64,000 bases of DNA from Cloeon dipterum (Eukaryota > Arthropoda > Insecta > Ephemeroptera > Baetidae). The stretch is taken from the NCBI RefSeq assembly GCF_949628265.1, contig NC_088788.1:24972335-25036334 (forward strand), written 5' to 3'. The position numbers and the translations under genes were made by a program. Below, piece after piece: positions 8,402 to 61,516 of this stretch. Below the pieces are notes generated by a model, which ran no database searches, was not told where the DNA came from, and saw nothing but the letters and a program-made list of their open reading frames with translations. How positions within the stretch are numbered: the first letter of the stretch is position 1; every line of letters starts with the position of its first letter.

Positions 8402-8603
8402 AGATCGTGTGGATTTAATTTTACTCTCCAATTAATCCATATACTCTTGCCACCCACGGAGAAGAGCTGTGTTGTAGTATTTAATTAAATTTCAAATAAA
8501 TAGTACATTAGTCCCTATGTCCCTATTATTTACTATACAGATTGATTGTCAGCTAGTATTGAGGAGAATATCGAGGACAAAAGAAAATGCTCATTATTAT
8601 TTT

Positions 8604-8650
8604 ACTGGATAGTATAGATTCTATCCAAACAGGAAGATATCATCAGCAGT
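8604..8650 (-). ncRNA. hammerhead-like motif, copy C (decayed)
   Basis: Read on the minus strand, ACTG then CTGATGA (8646-8640) is followed by a region whose ends pair as stem II (TATCT with GGATA), then GAA, ten bases, C, and CAGT, which pairs exactly with the leading ACTG as stem I. The flanks resemble copy B at both ends (AGGACTGCTGATGA and TCCAGTnAAAATAA). Stem III does not pair in register, so this looks inactive. It is inverted relative to copy A and about 200 bp from it. GGATAG/CTATCC forms an alternative 6-bp hairpin in the same segment. Confidence 0.45.
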
Positions 8651-8997
8651 CCTTCAATTTTCACTTATTCAGTGTGCAAGAAATCCTACTTTTTCATAAG
8701 TTTATGAAACGAATAGTTATTGCTAAACATTTAACCTGATTTGCACACCTGTTTCAAAAAATTACCATAAAAATGGTTGCTATATTTGCGACCAAGCAAG
8801 CTCACCTGCGCAATTTTAAAAAATTTTGCACGAAAATCGTTTGTATTTTTTTTGCGACTGCATCAATCTTTCGGGGGCATTTGATCATATAATCTGTCAC
8901 CCGCGGCCACGGTGTGGCGCAACCAGCTGCCGCCATCGGGGCCGATTTTCATTCTCGGCACTCGCGGGGAAACGCGTGCGTATGCAGCTATACGTAT

Positions 8998-9101
<104 letters not shown>

Positions 9102-12100
9102 CCGTGTGCGTTCCATCACTTTGATCCGCGCGCAGCATGTGTCGCGATAATGTTTTTAAGCACACGCAAACGGCCAGCGCGCACGGGTGAATTATTATTT
9201 TTACAGCAACAAGATAAGCTTTTTGGATCAGTGCTGCTTGCTCTCGGCCCCATAAAAAGGAGAGGAAGGCATTATTGCCATAAAAAAGCAGCGAACCGCT
9301 CTCTCGCTCGCTCGCTCGCACCGGGGACATTATTTTTTCAATACTTTCCATCAGCAGAAAAATAATAATAACAAAACAGCAGCGAGAGCCGCGCGTTTCG
9401 CCGCTCTCCGCATTTGTGTGTGTATATCTGCAATGAGGGAAAATACATCAACGCGAATAAATGTCCCCAAGTGTAATCTCTTTCCAACCCTTTCGTCCCA
9501 CCCGCCGCCACCGCCGCCACCACCACTCACACGCAAATATTATCTCTCAACGCGCACCTATATGGGCATGACGAGTGAGCTCCGAAAACACACACAGCAC
9601 ATTTTGTACTTTAGCTCGTCATTTTTTCCAGCATTCAAATATTGAAATATCCATCATGCGCGATATGAAGTTATGTCCTGTGCCCGGTCGACGTTTTGTA
9701 TCTGCTCGCACTGCCACCGCCGCCGCCGCGCGCTTTTATAATGTGTATTTTTATTATTACTCTCGGCAGCTCTCCATCAGCCCAGAGAACTGGTCCGGCC
9801 GGGCCTTTATTATTTTTTCAAATACGCGTACACGCCGATGATGGACAGTTGTGCAGCTTCTGGTTATTGATATACAATTTATTATCCTCTCGTCCAGGGT
9901 GATAAGTACATTAAAATTGCGAGCGCTCGCTTTTTTCCCTGCCGCGCGCACCGAACGAAAAAAGCACCACCCTCCAACGCCCTCCGGCACTTTTCCATTA
10001 ATATTTTTATCATTACGTGTCCGGCTGTGCGCCCCACGCAATTTATTGTGGCCACTCTTTCACCCGGCTTCCGAGCAAACGAGCGCTGCACACGTGAAAT
10101 CTCATTATGTTTTTTTAACAGTTCAAAAGAAATTTTAACCGTTGAGCGCCATCCCTTGCCGAGAGAAATATTTAAATTCCTGCTCAATATTGTGAGGTTG
10201 AAAATTTGTACGTCTTACATTAAAAAACAAATATGATGCAATTATACTGGTCAGCTTAGCCATCTTCTATGTGGATTTTTTTAGAAAAATATTGCTGCGT
10301 AACAAAGCAGTCTCCTTCATTCTTTAGGTGGCAGTATTTTAACAAAGCATAATCTTCTGTTTTTTCTATGTTTTCTCTAATTAATATACAACGCCTAGAA
10401 ATTACAACTTTTAGAATAAAATTTGCAGTTTCCGTATAGCAATGGCTATCCAGACCTTCATAAAACAACAGGAAGAAAATCGCTTAAATCCTACCTAAAA
10501 TTGGCTCTGTTTGTCATGACTGTTACAATAGTGGGAAATAATTTTACTCCTCAAATGTACTGGATTACAATGAGGGCAGACTTGGTAAATCTAATTTCCA
10601 CAACTTTTCAAGGTGAAAGGTGAAATTGCGGATGGAATCTTAAATTCGCGTCTCTAATTCGGTTTCAGAGCTTGCACACACAAGAAGAGACTAAAGCGGC
10701 GTAATGAAGTCGATTGGTGATTACAATTCAAGGTATGCCCTCTCACACAAAGTTGGGAATAATAATTATCAAGTCTGCGCCGGTGGTACGGCTTGAGCGG
10801 CGGCGGCAGCGGCAGCGGCATCCTCTCGCTCGTTCGTCACTGGCTGCGCTCGTCGGCTGTTTCTTGGGCTCGTTTCTTTGCATCTTCCTGCTCCTTCTCT
10901 CGGCAGTGGTGGCTGAGCCAAGCAGCCAGATAACAAGTAAAATATGCTAATGAACCATAATTACAACTGGCTCTGAATTGCTGCCGCTTTTGCAATTACA
11001 GTTAAGTAATTAGTGATTAAAATTAGATTTCTCTTCGTCGTCGTCGCGCGCGCGCTCCTTCCTTCTTCTCTCTCGCTCGCACTCCAAAGACAAACTTAAT
11101 TAGAAGGCTGCAAGCGGGCTGCCGGGGCTGCAAAATATACGTGCTGCTCTCTACTGTGTGCAGAAAGGGTTGAGCCGCTCTGGGAAATAATGAGCCGCCG
11201 ATAATCAGCAAGGCAGCAGCGACAACCACCCTTCGCCCATTTTTACTCGCGCGCGCGCTTGATTCGGCTCGAACACGCCGCGAGATGCAGTTCCACCTGA
11301 CACATTGTAGCCCTGGGCACGCTCCTTTCTTGCACGCATTTATTTGAAAAGCTACGTTCCGTTTCGTTTTGCTGCCAAATCCGGTTCAACTTTAAATGAG
11401 GCGTATGCATCCAACTCAAAAGCTGTGCACGAAAACTTTGTTTAGCTCACAATCGTGTAAAATGTTTCTAAAAGTTGTGAAATGGAGCTATTATTTTTTA
11501 GCCTTTGTTTCTTAATCTTCTACAAGCTAATGTTGTAAATTAGAATAAATGGAAAGTATTGTGAAATTAGAACTGCGCATTATCCCTTTCATTTAGTTTT
11601 TCTGGTGCGTGCTACAATAAACCAATGGATTTGTAATGTGTGCGGATTGTTGATTTTTAGGAATATTTTATAATTAAAATTGTCGTGGTATAGCGGAAAA
11701 ATTGCACAAAGCTCAACAACCAAACGCGAATTTCCTTGTTGCAAAAAAGGGCAACAATACATACATTCACCAATTAAAACTTATGTGTTTGTTGAGCGAT
11801 GAGCTATTTTTCCGGCTACCAATCAACCTATTTTGCCATTTTCCGAGGTTATGTCCTTATTTCTGTTAATTTTTGTAATGAAACTCAATGTCTTACAAAT
11901 AATTTTCAAAGTATAAATTTAAATTGTAGTCAGCTAAAATTCGAAACTATAGATATCGCTTTGTGAGTGATATATTTCACGAAAAGATTGTCACGTCAAT
12001 ACATAAATTGATTCAACAAAGTGAACTGAATTAACTTTTAAAATCAACTCAATTGGAAGCGTAAAAGCATACATACTGAATTAGTCAGCTTTATGAACCT

Positions 12101-32599: not shown

Positions 32600-35131
32600 C
32601 TGCTGCTCAAACCAGAGCTCGACCCATGAGCAACTTTGCAATTTAAGTTGGTAGCCGATCTAGCTAATGTTTAATTGGCTTTCCATGTGTTCGCTGTAAT
32701 TACGGCATCTTCAGAATTGAGTGGCTTAGAGCGCCAAACCACCACTCGCTCGCTCGCGCCGTGCTCCAAGCATTAGTAATTACTCTTCTTGAGTCGAATC
32801 GAGATAAAGTTTCTCTAATTCCACGTACCAACGGCAGCAACACGGCCAGACAACAATAGCATCAAACCGGCTGGCGGCTGCGGCCAAGATGTGTACCCCC
32901 GCGCGGCCAGAGAAGCCAGCAACGCAGCGCTGAAGAAGCAGGCCAGGTGATCAAATAAACATGGGCAGGGAATTTGGCGCAGAGCATCCCCAGCTCCTGC
33001 TCTCAGACACGCTGGCTGGACGCAGCTTCAGCGTTAAAGTCAATTTGCTTGAAAACTCAGTCTTCGTTTTAATGCTCTGTTATTGTGTATCTCATTCACC
33101 CTCTTAATAAGTTAAGCATGGCTTTATTTTCTGACAACCATGGTTTTATCAGTTATTTTTTACTGATTGCACGAGCAATTTTCTGCTTTTGATGTTATTC
33201 ACGTAGTTTCAATAAAAAAAATGGTAAAATCTCTTTGAGAAAAAAAAATGCTTCTTGTGTTCAATTTCTTTTTATTTACTTTTTAGACTTTCGCTCAGCG
33301 ATCTTAAAACTATTGCAAAATGAAAGCAAGATATTATGGTTCACGTGTCATCAATGATTATTTTGTTCGCTCCACAGTTCACAGGTAATGTCTTGCTAGA
33401 AATCAAATTTTCTAATTAATAATTGACCACTTCAGAGAGCACGTAGAGTGAAATACCAAAAAGGATGGGAATCAAAGCGAAAGTTGGTCGGCAAGAGAGC
33501 GAGCAGGCACACACATATGATAATTTATTGGCGGAAAGTGGACCCTCACCGCGCTGGTCCCCGAAGACCACCTCTGACATGGGCAAGTGATGGTGGCAAA
33601 CGAAGATCATTATGCGAGTTGCGTTGCCATGGAAACATTATGAGGTGCCACACGATGAGGGTGGACGCACCCGCCCGATTGTAATGTTCTGATTGAAGGG
33701 CTGCGCGAGGCAGTAATTTGGTCCAGCCACCGAGAGCAAGCGTGTGCTTATGCTGATTTCCAGCGCTCGGCGTTAAATAATGATTGTGCCGCGTGCTAAG
33801 CCTGGTGAGAGAGCAGCCCGAGCCTTCATTGTCAAAGGAACTGTTCACTCACTTTCCAGCCGCATTCAAGTGTTAAGCAATCGCTGGTGTGTTCGCTTTG
33901 TCCCCTCGAAACAAAACTTGTTGGAAATTAAAAATTAGAGGGAGATGTAATGACTGTTTCTACGACTGGCTTCATTGACGAAATAATTCATCAAAGACGC
34001 TAATTATTTTTTAAACAAAAAAGTATTACTGCTGACTTCCTTAAGGCACGATATCATTTATTTGACTAACATCAAATATGCAGGACATTAATTTTGGGTT
34101 AATTTAAATGAAATTTTGCTACGTTACCAATAATTAATTAATTATTTTCCTTTTTGGTATTTGGTTGAATGAAAATCTATCCATACTTCTGATGGGGATA
34201 TCTATTTTAGTGTAATCAACTCAAAATCAGAAAAATCACCAAAAATTATACCATTGCTTCCAATCAAATCAAATAGAGCAAAGGAGAGAGAAATTATGAT
34301 AAATATTAATTAAAATGTATACCGAAGGTTTACAGTTTAAAGTTAAAAAATATCCCAGTATGAAAAAAGCTGTTCGAAAAGTTAAATTTTGATCGGCTAT
34401 GGTTTATGAATTAGAAAAAAATGGAAAATATTAAAAAATGTAAAAATTATTAATGTTTTTATATCAATAATAATTTTTGGTTAGTCGCAAATTCACATTG
34501 GTTCTAATTTAATATTTTTTATTCTTAAAATTTTATAATTATTTTTTCACATAATATATATACCAACAACCAATCAAATAACTTATTATGTTGGCTCAGC
34601 AGGTTTTCATTGGCCACTGAATTTGCTCAAACACTGCTAGAAAATACCAAAAACCCCGTTTAATTTTTCTCCCTATTATAATTTTTAAACTCAATGCCTG
34701 AAACGCACATCGAGGCCATAATAGGTATTAATAAAATACATCATGTCATGCGTTAGGAAATGACATCAGTTCCAAAGTTCCAATTATGTATTATGAAATT
34801 CTAAGAAAGTGTGAAGTCTCACACGAAATTGTCCGAGGGTATTGTTGTGTGGTTAGGGCAGTGTCATCATCCTATCCCTTTACTCAGCTTAATCACCCTA
34901 ATAGCGCAAGAGGCAACAAAGAAAATCAACAATCACACGCAATCGATGCGCGATATTAATCGCACCTCTCACGTGGGAAATAAAAGTCTAATGGTGGTCT
35001 ATGTATGTAGATACATTTTAGAACCCATTCAGTTTCAGCTTATAGTTCAAGGCCACAAAGAAATTTACAAACTTACCTACTTCTCCTTTCCAGCTAGTGG
35101 TCACTGCGAGCAGCAATCGTCGGCCGCCAGG

Positions 35132-36680
35132 ATGGATCTTCTGCGTGCGTTGCGATTCTCAGATGCGCTCGCCACCCTGCTGGGTCTCAACTGTCACTTT
35201 AGCACCAGCTGGAAGCACGCTGCAAACGTCGTCTACTGCATTTTTGGTCTGGCGATGAAAGTCTTAGTCAGCGTGGCGTGTCTGTGTGGCGTGTTGCAGC
35301 ACATGGTTCAGTCGGACAAGGAGGACCTGAACGTGACAAACATGTTGCTGCTTGCCTCTTACAAAGCCACGTCTGTTCTCCTCTTCCTCGGCATTGGCTA
35401 CTACCACCTGCGGAAACACGCACAATATGTCGGAATTTTTCAGTCAATGACCACAGTAGCAGGCCGGCTGGGAGTTCTCGCGGATTTATTTACGTTTCTT
35501 CAGAATTACGCGACGTGCGTGGGAGTGATAAGCGTTTGTTCCGTCTGGGGTCTATTTTTCTATCAGATAACCCAACTGGGATTTTACCGGATTTTACGGC
35601 AAAAAAGTGGACTTCGCTCACTCCGCCGTTACCGCCTACGCAACCGTTTACTTCGAGCTAAAATATACGATTGTTGCGAAATCTACGCAGTTTCTGTTTG
35701 ATAAAGTGAACTTAAAAGTTGCGTCACTGAAAAAAAATCCAAAAATGCTGCTGGACGCTTATCCCTGCCTGAGGATGATCCATGCTGATATTTACCACCT
35801 GATTTGTGATACCAATAAATTCTTTGGGCCTCTGCTCATCTTAACTCAAATGCTGCAGTTTCAAGTGCTGCTCTACTCGGGATACGTTTTTGTAATTGCG
35901 TGCTTTGATCTTGAAGACGCCTTTGCTAGAGTGAAATATGAAATTATGCTTATTTCGTCATTTTACTGGGTCTTCATCTTTTGCAATTATTTGCATTTGA
36001 CAGCAACTTGCTCAATGGCGCTGCAAAAGGTTTGCATTTTTAAATAAAATATTATTTGAAATACATTCACTTCGCACAATTGAAATCTCGTTACAATCCT
36101 AATTTATTAAATAAACTAATAATAAATTATAGAATTTTCAATCCAGTTTGGATTTTTTTTCAAAAACACTGCGTGGTGAATTGATATATGAGGTTTTTTG
36201 AACATGTATATTCACTGGAAAAAATACAAAAATATGGCTAGAAATTCAAATGCGACCACAAATTTTCAGGGTCAAGAAACCGCTTGCAAGCTACTGAGTG
36301 TAGAAACTGATACTTCCAACGTTTGGGCGAGAGAAGAGGTGAAAGGAAATTTCTTTGATTTTTAATATTTCATAAAATAATAACCTTAGACCTTAGAAAT
36401 TAGAAAAGTGCAATTGCAAATAATGACTCTATAAAATTTTAGGCTGCTTTATTCCGAGAACAATTGCTCCACTATAGAACATTCACTTTCAACATTTCCG
36501 GCCTTTGCACAATCAACAACGCCTATATTTTCATTGTAAAATCGAGGTGTGATACAAATGTACTAGCTTTACGACACATAATCAATTTTACAGGTGTTTG
36601 GTGCTTTGGCCACTTACCTGGCAACTTTGGTGCAGTTCCACTTGCTAGCCCTGCAGTTAAAGCAAGATCCAAATGCATGA
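35132..36680 (+). pseudogene. insect gustatory receptor (7tm_7) with a one-base frameshift
   Basis: Exons: 35132-36029, 36270-36338, 36443-36535, 36594-36680; all three introns are phase 0, as is usual for insect GRs. The product would be a seven-helix ligand-gated chemoreceptor of about 380 aa in the sensory neuron membrane. The last exon carries TYLATLVQF, the TYhhhhhQF hallmark before the C-terminus. Hydrophobic segments fit seven helices, the last in exon 4. A splice-acceptor-like CCTTTCCAG at 35085-35093 suggests a 5' UTR exon, so I start at the ATG at 35132. The frame breaks inside exon 1: the first frame is sensible to about 35,600, and the second, offset by +1, from there on. The A6 run at 35601-35606 is the obvious place; A5 would join the frames without loss. 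Either it is a recent pseudogene or the homopolymer is miscounted. No subfamily is assigned. Confidence 0.85.
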
Positions 36681-54997: not shown

Positions 54998-57900
54998 ATG
55001 GCAGATATCTTACTCAGCGAGGCAGAAAAGACATTTATTCTCCATGGAGTCAGAGTAATTACATTAATTACATACATATAATGGATCTGAAACGTTTTAT
55101 TTTAATCGATTTAATCTTAAATTTACATACGAGCTCAACGGACTATTAATGTTGCATCGCAAAAATTGATTAACATTTTTCTCTGCTTTTACAGGACAAT
55201 GTTCGTAACGATGGCCGATCTTGTTCAGAATTTCGGCCTATTGAATTGGAGCTTGGACTAGTTGAAAATGCCAATGGGTCAGCCCGAGTCAGACTAGCGA
55301 ATACAGATGTACTCGTTGCAGTCAAATGTGAAATCGACAACCCTTCCAGCAACTTTCCAGATGAAGGAAAGCTGGATTTCTTTGTCGACTGGTAAATATT
55401 TGTTAGTGGTTCTTGCAATCCTTTTACTCTAATAGTGATTTATTTCAGCTCTGCCAACGCCACACCACAATTCGAAGGAAAAGGCGGGGAGCAGTTGGCT
55501 GTAGAATTAGCAGCTCTAATGTCCAGAGCTTATCAAACTAGGGAATCGTTTAATCTAAGCACTCTTTCCATTATTAAAGGCATGAAGTGTTGGAAATTGT
55601 GCATCGATGTGTTGGTAAGCAAGCCAGCAAGCATTACATGTCTTATTCACAAGTGCCCATACATCCACAGATTTTAGAGTGTGGTGGTAGTCTAATTGAC
55701 GCCATATCTATGGGGACAAAAGCAGCTTTGGCGGACACAAAAATTCCTAAGGTGTCTGTCATTGGCAGTGATGAAGGGAGTTTGGAATTGGAGCTTGCAG
55801 ATGAAGCTGATGGCAGAGAGGAGCCCCTTGATTGGCATCATGCACCTTGCTTAGTTACCCTAAATAAGGTAAATGATACAGAGGGAAGGATCCAAATCAA
55901 GTGACACCCCCCTTGGCAAGTGGTCTTCAGATTTTGCTGAAATTCGGTGGAGATGTTGCCCTAGGGGACCTAAGTTGAACCCTAGAATATTAGGTGAAAA
56001 TTCCAAAAATTGCCCATTTTACAGGGGTTCAAAATTTGAGATTTTTGAAAAAGGTGATGTTTTCAACCATTTGTAACTTTGACTCTGTTTGTGGTTAACA
56101 CAAAAATTTTGTATCCAAAATGATCTACGTTTAACGCCAAACAACTTCCCCAAGATTAAAAACTTCGTAGGTCAAAGGTCAAGGTCACTAAATTGGGGTC
56201 AAACTTTTCGAAAAAATCCCACATACCCTAGTACATAAAATTTTGAAAATTCAAAATAGCCAAAATGTGCCTCATATCCATGGTAACAACATATAAAAAA
56301 TTGGCGAGACTTATTTTTTTCTTTTTCGAGATATTTTGAATTGAGTGTTAAAAATCGATGTTTTCCGGGTCTTTTGATCGCAAATAAAAACACGTTTTCC
56401 GCTTAATCTCAGCTTCTATGGGTCCGATTTAGAAAAACCGCACACCATTTGATACGTAATGACCTCCCCTAGGTAGCGCAAGTGATCATAAGGGTGCCCA
56501 CCCCCTTCGAACCCTTAACCACCCCCTGGAAATCCGAAAAAATTATTTTTTCATATATTTACTATCTAAATCAATTAATTAAGCAAACTACTAATCAAAT
56601 ATGTTCCAAAATAATTAAAATATAAAATATTTCTATTTTCTTTGTAGAAAACTCTGTAAAAAAGTAAAATTGCTCATAAAAAATTATTTAAGTTTATTTT
56701 AAATATATAATAATTTTGCATTTTTTTGTTTATTCAAAATGACTGAATTTTATATTTTTAAATTGAATTTTTGAATATATTTTCTATTTTACAGTGTTTA
56801 TTTTATTATTATAAATAAATGCAACTATTAATAATTGTTTTACCATTGGCATTTGGTTAAAATTGTGTGTTTTAAACATTGTTGCTAATGGTTGCATTTC
56901 TTTATATTTATAAAAAAACACTGTAAAATAGAAAATATATTCAAAAATTCATTGTAAAAATAAAAAATTCAGTCATTTTGAATAAACAAAAAAATGCAAA
57001 ATTATTATATATTTAAAATAAACTTAAATAATTTTTTATGAGCAATTTTACGTTTTTACAGTTATTTCTACAAAGAATTGAAATATTTTATATTTTAATT
57101 ATTTTGGAACATATTTGATTAGTAGTTTGCTTAATTAATCGATTTAGATAGTAAATATATGAAAAAATAAATTTTTCAGATTTCCAGGGGGTGGTTAAGG
57201 GTTCGAAGGGGGTGGGCACCCTTATGATCACTTGTGCTACCTAGGGGAGGTCATTACGTATCAAATGGTGTGCGGTTTTTCTAAATCGGACCCATAGAAG
57301 CTGAGATTAAGCGGAAAACGTGTTTTTATTTGCGATCAAAAGACCCGGAAAACATCGATTTTTAACACTCAATTCAATATATCTCGAAAAAGAAAAAAAT
57401 AAGTCTCGCCAATTTTTTATATGTTGTTACCATGGATATGAGGCACATTTTGGCTATTTTGAATTTTCAAAATTTTATGTACTAGGGTATGTGGGATTTT
57501 TTCGAAAAGTTTGACCCCAATTTAGTGACCTTGACCATTGACCTACGAAGTTTTTTATCTTGGGGAAGTTGTTTGGCATTAAACGTAGATCATTTTGGAT
57601 ACAAAATTTTTGTGTTAACCACAAACAGAGTCAAAGTTACAAATGGTTGAAAACATCACCTTTTTCAAAAATCTCAAATTTTGAACCCCTGTAAAATGGG
57701 CAATTTTTGGAATTTTCACCTAATATTCTAGGGTTCAACTTAGGTCCCCTAGGGCAACATCTCCACCGAATTTCAGCAAAATCTGAAGACCACTTGCCAA
57801 GGGGGGTGTCACTTGATTTAGATCCTTCCAGAGGCAAGAATAGAAAATTGGTCTCTTTTAAGTTTGGTTATAAGTATGAAATTTCAAAGCAGAAATAATA

Positions 57901-58256
57901 TCTTATCAAATGGATGGAAAAAAATATAATGAGCACATCTGAAGCACGTTCTGCGCATCTATGCAAATTTGATAAAGCTATAATTATTTTTTAAGCTTGA
58001 GGACTCTTTGCTGGTGGATGCGAGTGCTGAGGAGGAGGCTTGCTGCGCAGCTGCCCTCATTGTAGGTGTGTCACCAAATAAGAAAATCACCACCACGTCG
58101 ATACCTGGCCATGGCAGTTTTCTGGCAGACTCAAAAGTATTCACAAGGGCTCTTAATTTGGCAGTTGATGTAGGTGTTAAGTTGAATACAGCTCTTGAAG
58201 CTGCTATCAAGAAACACCAAACCCTAAAGCCACCACCGAGAGGTTTTCTTGATTAA
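54998..58256 (+). CDS. EXOSC7: exosome complex component RRP42 (EXOSC7)
   Basis: Exons: 54998-55054, 55195-55391, 55449-55614, 55671-55868, 57996-58256; 879 nt, 292 aa (human EXOSC7 is 291). It is a subunit of the hexameric RNase PH-like ring of the RNA exosome, which threads RNA for 3'-5' decay in nucleus and cytoplasm; animal ring subunits are structural, not catalytic. The N-terminus MADILLSEAEKTFILHGV and the NDGRSCSEFRPIELELG stretch are family hallmarks. The first RNase PH fold covers roughly residues 25-150 and the second continues through LVDASAEEEACCAAALIVGV. Introns 1-3 are short (57-140 bp). Intron 4 is 2,127 bp because it carries a foldback element. Stop is TAA with AATAAA 35 bp later. 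Confidence 0.95.
55885..57828. mobile_element. foldback (long inverted repeat) element in EXOSC7 intron 4
   Basis: A 1,944-bp near-perfect palindrome centred at about 56,856. The left arm (55885 to about 56,841) is mirrored by the right arm (about 56,872 to 57828) with few substitutions and only about 2-3 bp net indel near the middle, around a spacer of about 30 bp. The ends begin GAAGGATC(C/T)AAATCAAG. CAGAGG directly flanks both ends (55879-55884 and 57829-57834), a 6-bp target-site duplication. No transposase is encoded; the matching 64-66-codon open frames on opposite strands are mirror shadows of the arms. It is probably a non-autonomous foldback/MITE-like DNA element; the superfamily is unknown to me. 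Confidence 0.9.
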
Positions 58257-58871: not shown

Positions 58872-61516
58872 ATGACAACGCCAAGTTAGTATAATTTATC
58901 AATTATTTCTATTTTGTCTATGATATAAAGTTTCTAATTTTTTCCAGTTTATTTCTCAATATATTGCTCTTAAATAAATTGTTTGCGATTTTTCAGAGTT
59001 GGGCAAATTGGTAATTGAGGGAAAGACGAAGCGTGTCATCGACCTGCCAGACAGTCCAGGTCTTGTGTATGTCGAGAGCAAGGACCGAATTACTGCCGGC
59101 GATGGTGTCAAGGCGCATGACCTTGAGGGCAAAGCAGCCATCTCGACGGCCACCACAGCCAAAGTATTTGAACTGCTCAATTCAGCAGGTGTGTTATAGC
59201 TTCAAAACGTTTGTTAATAGGGTGCGCCGAACAAAAAATACTTTGTGCTCTCCATTGCTTAATTAATTAGAAGTAAAAATTTTATTTAAGTGGGAATTAA
59301 TCTCGGCATATATAATGCATCTTTGTTTTTCTATTGTTAATATGTGCTGATTGAGGAACCTTGGATGTTACTTAATTTGTTTATTGAATGACCTAGTTAA
59401 TTGACCTGGGGTCTTATGACAGGTTCAATAATAATAGCTGGATTAAAAGATAGATTAACTCTCATTACTCTTTGAACTGACGTTAAGATACTTCTTCACT
59501 TTGATCAATATAAATGTCAATTTTTATCTTTTGAATATTTAATGAACTGGGAAGGTTCCTTTTTGGGGACCGATCATGTTAACGCTTAAGATTTTTAATA
59601 ATAATTAAAATATTTATATAGAATGCCTTTTGTCTGCATGAGTATTTCAAACTAAAGCAATCTTTTGGTCCTGCTCAAACTGGTTTTTTTAAATAGTCCA
59701 TAATTACATGCCAATATCTCAACGGCCTTGGAGAAATAGGCGTATAATTATGGTATATTACAAATTGCTTGAAAGCATCCTGTAATTGCTTTAAAAAAAT
59801 TCTAGGAATCCCCACGCACTTTAAGCAGCTGAACGGTCCTACATCCTTCATAGCTGAAAAGTGTGCAATGGTACCCATCGAGTGGGTTACCCGTCGGTTG
59901 GCCACTGGTTCATTCCTGAAGCGCAACCCTGGTGTCCCTGAGGGATTCAGATTTGCTCCACCCTGCCAAGAGACTTTCTTCAAGGACGATGCTAACCACG
60001 ATCCTCAATGGTCTCAAGAGCAGATCATTAGTGCCAAATTCACGCTCAATGGCCTTACTATCGGACAGGCTGAAGTTCTCGCCATGCAGAGAATGACCAT
60101 TTGTGTCTTTGAGGTGAGTTTATTTAGTAACACAAAACTACGCAACAGTATCAATCATATTCAATTGAAAAACTAGTTAAAACTGGTTGATTTTTAATTA
60201 AGGTTCTGGAACGAGCTTGGTCGACACTCGACTGCGCCTTGGTGGACATGAAAATCGAGTTCGGCATCACTGAGGATGGCCGCTTGGTCGTGGCTGATGT
60301 TATTGACAGTGACTCGTGGCGTCTGTGGCCCAGTGGAGACAAGAGGCTGATGAAGGACAAGCAGGTCTACCGCGACTTGGGAACCAATGTCACCCAACAA
60401 CATCTTGAGACTGTTAAGAGGAATTTCCAGTGGGTTGCTGACCAGCTAGAAAAGCTTCTACCACAGCCCCGTGGAAGGGTAAGAATTTTTTATCGCCTAA
60501 ATTACGTATGAAGCCCTCTGAGCATCTCAAAAGACAAAATATTATCTGCTAATTAATATTTGACTTTCCATCAGTGTTGGAGACTTGAATAGATAGATGC
60601 GTTAGTTATGGACTAATGATATTCTTTCAATACAGAAGTTTATATGGATTTAAAACCATTTATTAGTCATATGGGAAATTAATCACAAAAATGTTTGAAA
60701 CTAAATAAATTTATCTATTTTGACCAATTTTTATCATATTTGCATTTTGGTCTTCAACACCCAGTCTGTTATAAACAAACCATATCAATGGAATCATCTG
60801 GTTCTACCCTTGAACCAACAATTTTCAACTTTTGCAATGTCATCATAATTTTTTTAAGTGAGCAAAATATATATACAAAATATTTCAAAACTGTCGTGAG
60901 TACTAATCAACTGAGGTTAAAAAAGGTACTGCTTGATTATAAATTTATTTGCCGATCCTAACATCGGGAGTGCTATATATGGATTTAACTCTTTTTCAAT
61001 TCGGAAAGGATTAAACTACAATACTCATAGACTGACCTAAAATTTTCTCCTCAGGTCGTGGTCTTCATGGGCTCTGCTAGTGACGTTGCTCACTGCCGTG
61101 AAATCAAGCGCCACTGCACAGAACTTGGTGTGCCTTGCGAGCTTCGCGTGTCTTCGGCTCACAAGGGTCCTCATGACACCCTCCGCATGGCGGCCGAGTA
61201 TGAAGCAGACGCCGACCGGCCTCTAGTGATCATCGCCGTGGCTGGCCGAAGCAACGGCCTCGGTCCGGTGCTCTCCGGCAACGTCAGCTGCCCTGTTATC
61301 AACTGTCCCCCTGGTGCGACCACCGGCAACGATGTTTGGTCTTCCCTGAACGTTCCGTCAGGCCTGGGCTGCACCACTGTGCTCTATCCTGGGGCAGCTG
61401 CCTTGGCCGCCGCCTCCATTCTCGGCCAAACCGACCATGTCATTTGGTCCAAGCTGAGGGCCAAGCAGATGAACACAGCTGTCGGACTGCTGCAGACCGA
61501 CAAGAATCTAGAATAG
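58872..61516 (+). CDS. PAICS: bifunctional SAICAR synthetase / AIR carboxylase (PAICS)
   Basis: Exons: 58872-58884, 58997-59188, 59806-60113, 60203-60478, 61055-61516; 1251 nt, 416 aa (human 425). It catalyses two consecutive steps of cytosolic de novo purine synthesis: carboxylation of AIR to CAIR, then ATP-dependent ligation of aspartate to give SAICAR. The SAICAR synthetase domain (1-263) shows EGKTKRV, the signature [27 protein letters not shown] and [11 protein letters not shown]. The AIR carboxylase domain (264-416) shows [21 protein letters not shown] (SAHK is the animal class II form), [16 protein letters not shown] and [14 protein letters not shown]. The last intron falls exactly between the two domains, so exon 5 alone encodes the carboxylase. 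Exon 1 is only 13 nt (MTTP plus one base), chosen by donor GTTAGT and phase; another start is possible. Confidence 0.95.

Follow-up and report, generated by a model that had tools for sequence, protein, structure and literature searches.

The stretch of 64,000 nucleotides analysed here (the window) comes from the mayfly Cloeon dipterum (assembly GCF_949628265.1, contig NC_088788.1, positions 24,972,335 to 25,036,334) and raises the question of how a kilobase-scale foldback, with two long inverted arms around a short spacer, came to lie in intron 4 of EXOSC7. An earlier reading of the letters alone (the sequence-only reading) had pointed out this structure. We consider it very probable that the foldback is a non-autonomous DNA transposon mobilised in trans by the transposase of two relatives of about 4 kb in this genome, named L050 and L051.

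The host gene was identified as EXOSC7/RRP42 by joining five exons, the joins being read by eye. Its product carries both RNase_PH domains (domain search) and is 99% identical over the full length to P0031, the published C. dipterum EXOSC7 protein of 292 aa (4/292 residues differ by eye), in which the exon join at intron 4 is identical. Self-alignment bore out the mirror-image arms with few indels inside this intron, with arms shorter (about 946 nt) and a spacer longer (Table 1) than the ~957 and ~30 bp read from the letters. The whole element, 55884-57829, begins at nucleotide 16 of the intron, and 177 nt of intron are left once it and one copy of its target-site duplication (TSD) are removed. 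Its terminus is GGAAGGATC, one base outward of the previously proposed end GAAGGATC. The 6-bp duplication CAGAGG turned out to be a 4-bp duplication, AGAG, which looks longer because the adjacent C and G match the terminal C and G by chance. Up to arm position 940, the two arms differ in 23 columns (20 substitutions and 3 gap columns). The longest open frames inside the element are of about 67 aa, and the arms hold only weak direct repeats of 20-33 nt, with no internal tandem array. The window copy thus shows the features of a foldback transposon (long inverted arms, a short middle, no transposase, and a TSD); it is a mobile insertion flanked by a genuine duplication.

Table 1. Coordinates of the foldback copy, its host intron, and the two transposase-encoding relatives (window positions unless a contig is given)
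Feature	Position	Strand	Description	Basis
Left TSD	55880..55883	.	AGAG	end comparison
Left arm	55884..56830	+	947 nt, starts GGAAGGATCC	self-alignment
Asymmetric spacer	56831..56885	.	55 nt, recognisably common to foldbacks of both subfamilies	
Right arm	56886..57829	-	944 nt, inverted copy, ends GATCCTTCC	
Right TSD	57830..57833	.	AGAG	end comparison
EXOSC7 intron 4	55869..57995	+	2127 nt, phase 0	
EXOSC7 exon 5	57996..58256	+	coding part to stop	ORF list and exon joins
L050	C2:34853300-34858100		subfamily A source element	
L051	C2:6499900-6504700		subfamily B source element	

As the sequence-only reading had proposed, copies were counted by searching the genome (190 Mb in ten contigs, five of these 33-43 Mb) with one arm. 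The left arm gave at least 79 matches at 85-100% identity, both window arms included, a lower bound since 40 of 305 candidates were scored, and the terminal 23 nt, with at most 3 mismatches allowed, gave at least 56 forward and at least 55 reverse matches, the reversed control giving none. At least 37 foldbacks exceeded 1900 nt and were thus near full length. The family is dispersed and multi-copy, with one terminus and with flanks and TSDs that differ from copy to copy, which rules out the assembly artefact considered earlier. Sixty-one loci were retrieved, and the end comparison took in the window copy and loci L011-L069. Among the 46 elements with both ends, a perfect 4-bp TSD was present in 39, while duplications of 5, 3, 2, and 6 bp were seen in 0, 3, 8, and 1, respectively; the 6-bp frame expected of the copies fits 4/46. 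Two further elements, L070 and L071, also had a TSD. The TSDs are AT-rich and of no fixed sequence (ATAT was the most frequent, 6/39), and the termini separate two subfamilies, A with GGAAGGATCYAAATCAAG and B with GGAAGGATCCATATTAAG (20+22 ends). Four short copies of 367-1160 nt, with a repeat of about 60-117 nt at one end, have perfect 4-bp TSDs, and therefore the long repeats seem not to be required for movement. No description of the family was found within the open-licence papers searched, which is not proof of absence.

Three loci had unusual surroundings. L052 (C2:13075400-13085000) is a larger inverted duplication (139-1066 and 8573-9500, 928 nt, 99.8%) that extends about 300 nt into the flank beyond the element ends; it has mirrored flanks in place of a TSD, and 8.76 kb separates the ends. 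In L056 (C3:658800-) and L057 (C3:10116000-), a related left end follows an identical octamer, acgctgac, and both loci may represent a single larger repeat in which the end is embedded.

L050 and L051, each about 4 kb and bounded by foldback-type ends, share with the foldbacks the termini, the 4-bp duplications, and terminal repeats of 0.7 kb. Both carry a two-exon transposase gene (692 and 682 aa) that is open in each of them, with a conserved D/D/D, and no other transposase copies were found in the genome, compared with at least 37 foldbacks. The exon-2 open reading frames (ORFs) of both had no match in Pfam, and none of 29 homologues had a MULE or rve match there either; a search of PDB sequences with the transposase returned nothing relevant. 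Structure prediction points to an RNase-H-like core, and retroviral integrase cores ranked first when Foldseek's own candidates were re-aligned to the predicted fold. In both elements, the main frame is preceded by a small exon that contains Cys residues and by a short intron (1371-1659 in L050); the homologues have a longer N-terminus rich in Cys.

We then compared the foldback arms with the two source elements. The outer 0.7 kb of the arms matches both terminal inverted repeats (TIRs) of L050 and L051, while beyond 0.7 kb the arms continue only on the transposase-upstream side; therefore, both arms correspond to the 5' non-coding end. In L051, whose start codon is at 985, the match reaches 951-955; in L050, where it contains a gap and the start codon is at 965, it reaches 939-943, so the arms end about 20-35 nt short of the transposase start codon. 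The window copy is hence a non-autonomous "promoter-end" foldback of a DDD transposon with 4-bp TSDs. An ancestral copy would have shed both transposase and far end and acquired an inverted copy of its own 5' promoter-side 0.95 kb, and the foldback form would subsequently have spread by cut-and-paste, the EXOSC7 copy being a passenger that would be spliced out with the intron. The asymmetric spacer common to A and B foldbacks suggests that they arose once, before the subfamilies diverged. A core promoter in the arms was considered as well: among the 37 full-length foldbacks, 27 carry a TATAAAT-like motif in both inner arms and 10 in only one. It was discarded as evidence of a promoter, 51% of shuffled arm ends carrying the motif.

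Several observations weigh against mobilisation by the L050/L051 transposase. No transposition was observed. Seven of the 46 pairs (L023, L026, L031, L047, L052, L058, and L069) are without a perfect 4-bp TSD, and the match between the inner arm and the upstream region of L050 is partial (69-76% over about 90-130 nt). The RNase-H-like fold was predicted on a metagenomic homologue, P0001, and not on the mayfly protein; Foldseek found no match to this predicted fold in PDB and BFVD at E<=0.001; and D430 alone is invariant in the 29-row alignment (fragments included), where D557 is below 90%.

The second question was how the arms stay alike. Over the outer 680 nt, the two arms of one element were 0.994 identical in subfamily A (28 elements) and 0.997 in B (10 elements), compared with 0.966 and 0.986, respectively, for arms of different elements, and none of 2000 random re-pairings of arms reached the observed mean in either subfamily. 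This excess within elements is also what would be expected if every foldback had arisen separately and recently out of one end, by independent inverted duplications and with no conversion. We regard such an origin as very improbable: it predicts likeness over the full arm length, a prediction already largely contradicted, since no position separates left from right arms across elements in the outer 700 nt, whereas 3 (A) and 19 (B) do so at 701-948, and a recognisable asymmetric spacer is shared by the foldbacks of A and B. Within-element identity decreased towards the centre, where it was 0.840 (A) or 0.702 (B), compared with 0.996 at the terminus. In trees of 14/40 elements, the two arms were sisters in 8 elements for the outer region (support of 85-100), while for the inner region arms clustered more by side. 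Separately, the outer tree placed the B foldbacks with L051 (support of 100) and the inner tree placed L050 with L051 (91). This conflict hints that source elements and foldbacks have exchanged TIRs but is not relied on because the inner tree comprises about 245 AT-rich nt with long branches.

It is over the 0.7-kb TIR of the autonomous elements that the arms are most alike, as they would be if selection on the terminal repeat as a transposase substrate, and not conversion, maintained the identity. Selection for one common sequence would not place element-private variants on both arms, yet in the outer region such variants occupied both arms at 36 positions and one arm at 39 in A, and both at 16 and one at 19 in B, that is, both arms at 36/75 and 16/35 positions; in the inner arm, both arms carried them at 12 positions and one arm at 64 in A, and both at 6 and one at 28 in B. 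The four short copies with perfect TSDs also speak against a need for long repeats, and we find selection of this kind very unlikely as the explanation. The patterns argue instead for arm conversion in the history of the family: as inferred from them, conversion between the two arms of an element would have recurred, chiefly within the outer ~700 nt. When breaks at the element ends are repaired, for instance by gap repair after excision, one arm may be copied from the other; repair starting at the ends would yield the observed gradient from terminus to centre, whereas extrusion from the centre would give the opposite one. On the other side of the balance, the nearest arm belonged to another element for 26/80 arms, and the window copy shows inherited arm differences and not conversion. 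Its outer-arm identity, 0.988, belongs to the six lowest values obtained for 38 foldbacks, and L011, its closest relative (differing by 13 mismatches in 1948 columns), has 15/23 of these arm-difference columns in common with it; therefore, these differences were inherited and have not been erased since the two copies parted. Arm conversion has thus happened in the family, but the suggestion of recent insertion or continuing conversion does not suit the window copy well, which gives no sign of conversion since insertion.

The foldback had also been proposed to supply a double-stranded RNA (dsRNA) hairpin of about 950 bp, which might be a substrate for Dicer-2 or ADAR and might slow splicing. 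Folded as RNA in silico, the element gave -1535.9 kcal/mol and 933 pairs, with a longest uninterrupted helix of 241 bp, so that the intronic RNA can, by this computation, form a hairpin of about 945 bp, close to the length claimed. Such a hairpin could make the foldback a regulator retained by the host, producing endogenous small interfering RNAs against the parent transposon or tuning EXOSC7 splicing. The structure parallels Mu killer, in which a promoter-side end is duplicated in inverted orientation within or beside a gene (as far as the excerpt of PMC3440606 describes it); L050 contains exact matches to 339 of the foldback's 1926 21-mers, L051 to 112, and window positions 1-55000 to 0; and the transposase was found in two copies only, compared with at least 37 foldbacks. 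Ordinary non-autonomous elements that outnumber their source would fit these observations too, though, the exact sharing of 21-mers with the partners is only 6-18%, and a hairpin closing within the intron might help splicing as readily as hinder it; retention as a regulator is, in our judgement, unlikely. By analogy, promoter-end foldbacks might be a self-limiting arm of the transposon system, an animal counterpart of Mu killer in which conversion would keep hairpins near-perfect and copies in transcribed introns such as intron 4 of EXOSC7 would steadily make dsRNA against the TIRs and the 5' leader of the autonomous element, an idea that we consider rather improbable. The Mu killer parallel nevertheless makes a silencing role worth testing.

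Elsewhere in the window, fragments of a PAICS-like gene (SAICAR synthetase and AIR carboxylase, assigned by visual reading of ORFs) lie directly downstream of EXOSC7 at 58978-61516, and a gustatory-receptor-like ORF lies at 34805-35701, its sole match being a Neocloeon triangulifer protein with PF08395 (59% over 51%). Together with the 99% match of EXOSC7 to C. dipterum, this led to the rejection of Trichogramma, which five chromosomes and one transposase match had suggested as the host.

Foldback elements often have no known source, and the origin and upkeep of their arm likeness are unsettled. Here, one mayfly genome holds foldbacks together with two apparently intact source elements whose transposase lineage has no Pfam model, and it offers promoter-side-only arms, two subfamilies with a common spacer, and a measurable gradient of arm homogenisation. 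An origin by inverted duplication, conversion by repair from the ends, and a role in silencing are each made testable in a laboratory insect.

The family was finally compared with known systems. IS3EU, suspected from the apparent 6-bp duplication, was dropped, as the 6-bp TSD and TA..TA termini of its definition (in the portion of PMC10045372 available) were not found. By TSD, Mutator (MULE), which requires 8-10 bp, and P/Galileo, which requires 7-10 bp, were rejected, the TSD here being 4 bp in 39/46. For Ginger, the 4-bp TSD fits and the predicted fold resembles integrase cores, with no rve match in Pfam. The Sola transposase is reportedly of the DDD type (Bao et al. 2009), and a DDD triad lies in the predicted RNase-H-like fold here. 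The 4-bp AT-rich TSD (39/46) is as in Sola2, the TIRs of which are 12-21 bp, compared with 0.7 kb here (excerpt of PMC3627910). Where the sequence-only reading could name no family, autonomous partners have now been found, and TSD and DDD make the element a candidate Sola-like transposon.

Among foldbacks, Galileo (P superfamily) and Drosophila FB likewise have long inverted arms with little between them, and their first known copies were without transposase, the autonomous relative being found later (according to the part of PMC3573991 at hand). They differ in duplications of 7-10 bp, in arms built of internal tandem repeats, and in a transposase unrelated at the Pfam level to that of L050 and L051. 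Tetris and Mutator-type foldbacks are similarly non-autonomous, but the duplications of Tetris are 8-10 bp and the text seen of PMC4079207 reports no autonomous partner for it, whereas partners are present here; the same source holds that foldbacks may come from different lineages through loss of transposase and longer TIRs. Mu killer of maize likewise arose in a gene environment and duplicates, in inverted orientation, the promoter-side end of an autonomous transposon, so that hairpin RNA is possible, and antisense RNA from within the duplication accompanies silencing; it is, in the passages available of PMC3440606, a rearranged locus that includes part of the transposase gene, whereas the mayfly foldbacks form a mobile family with TSDs of their own and no coding sequence.
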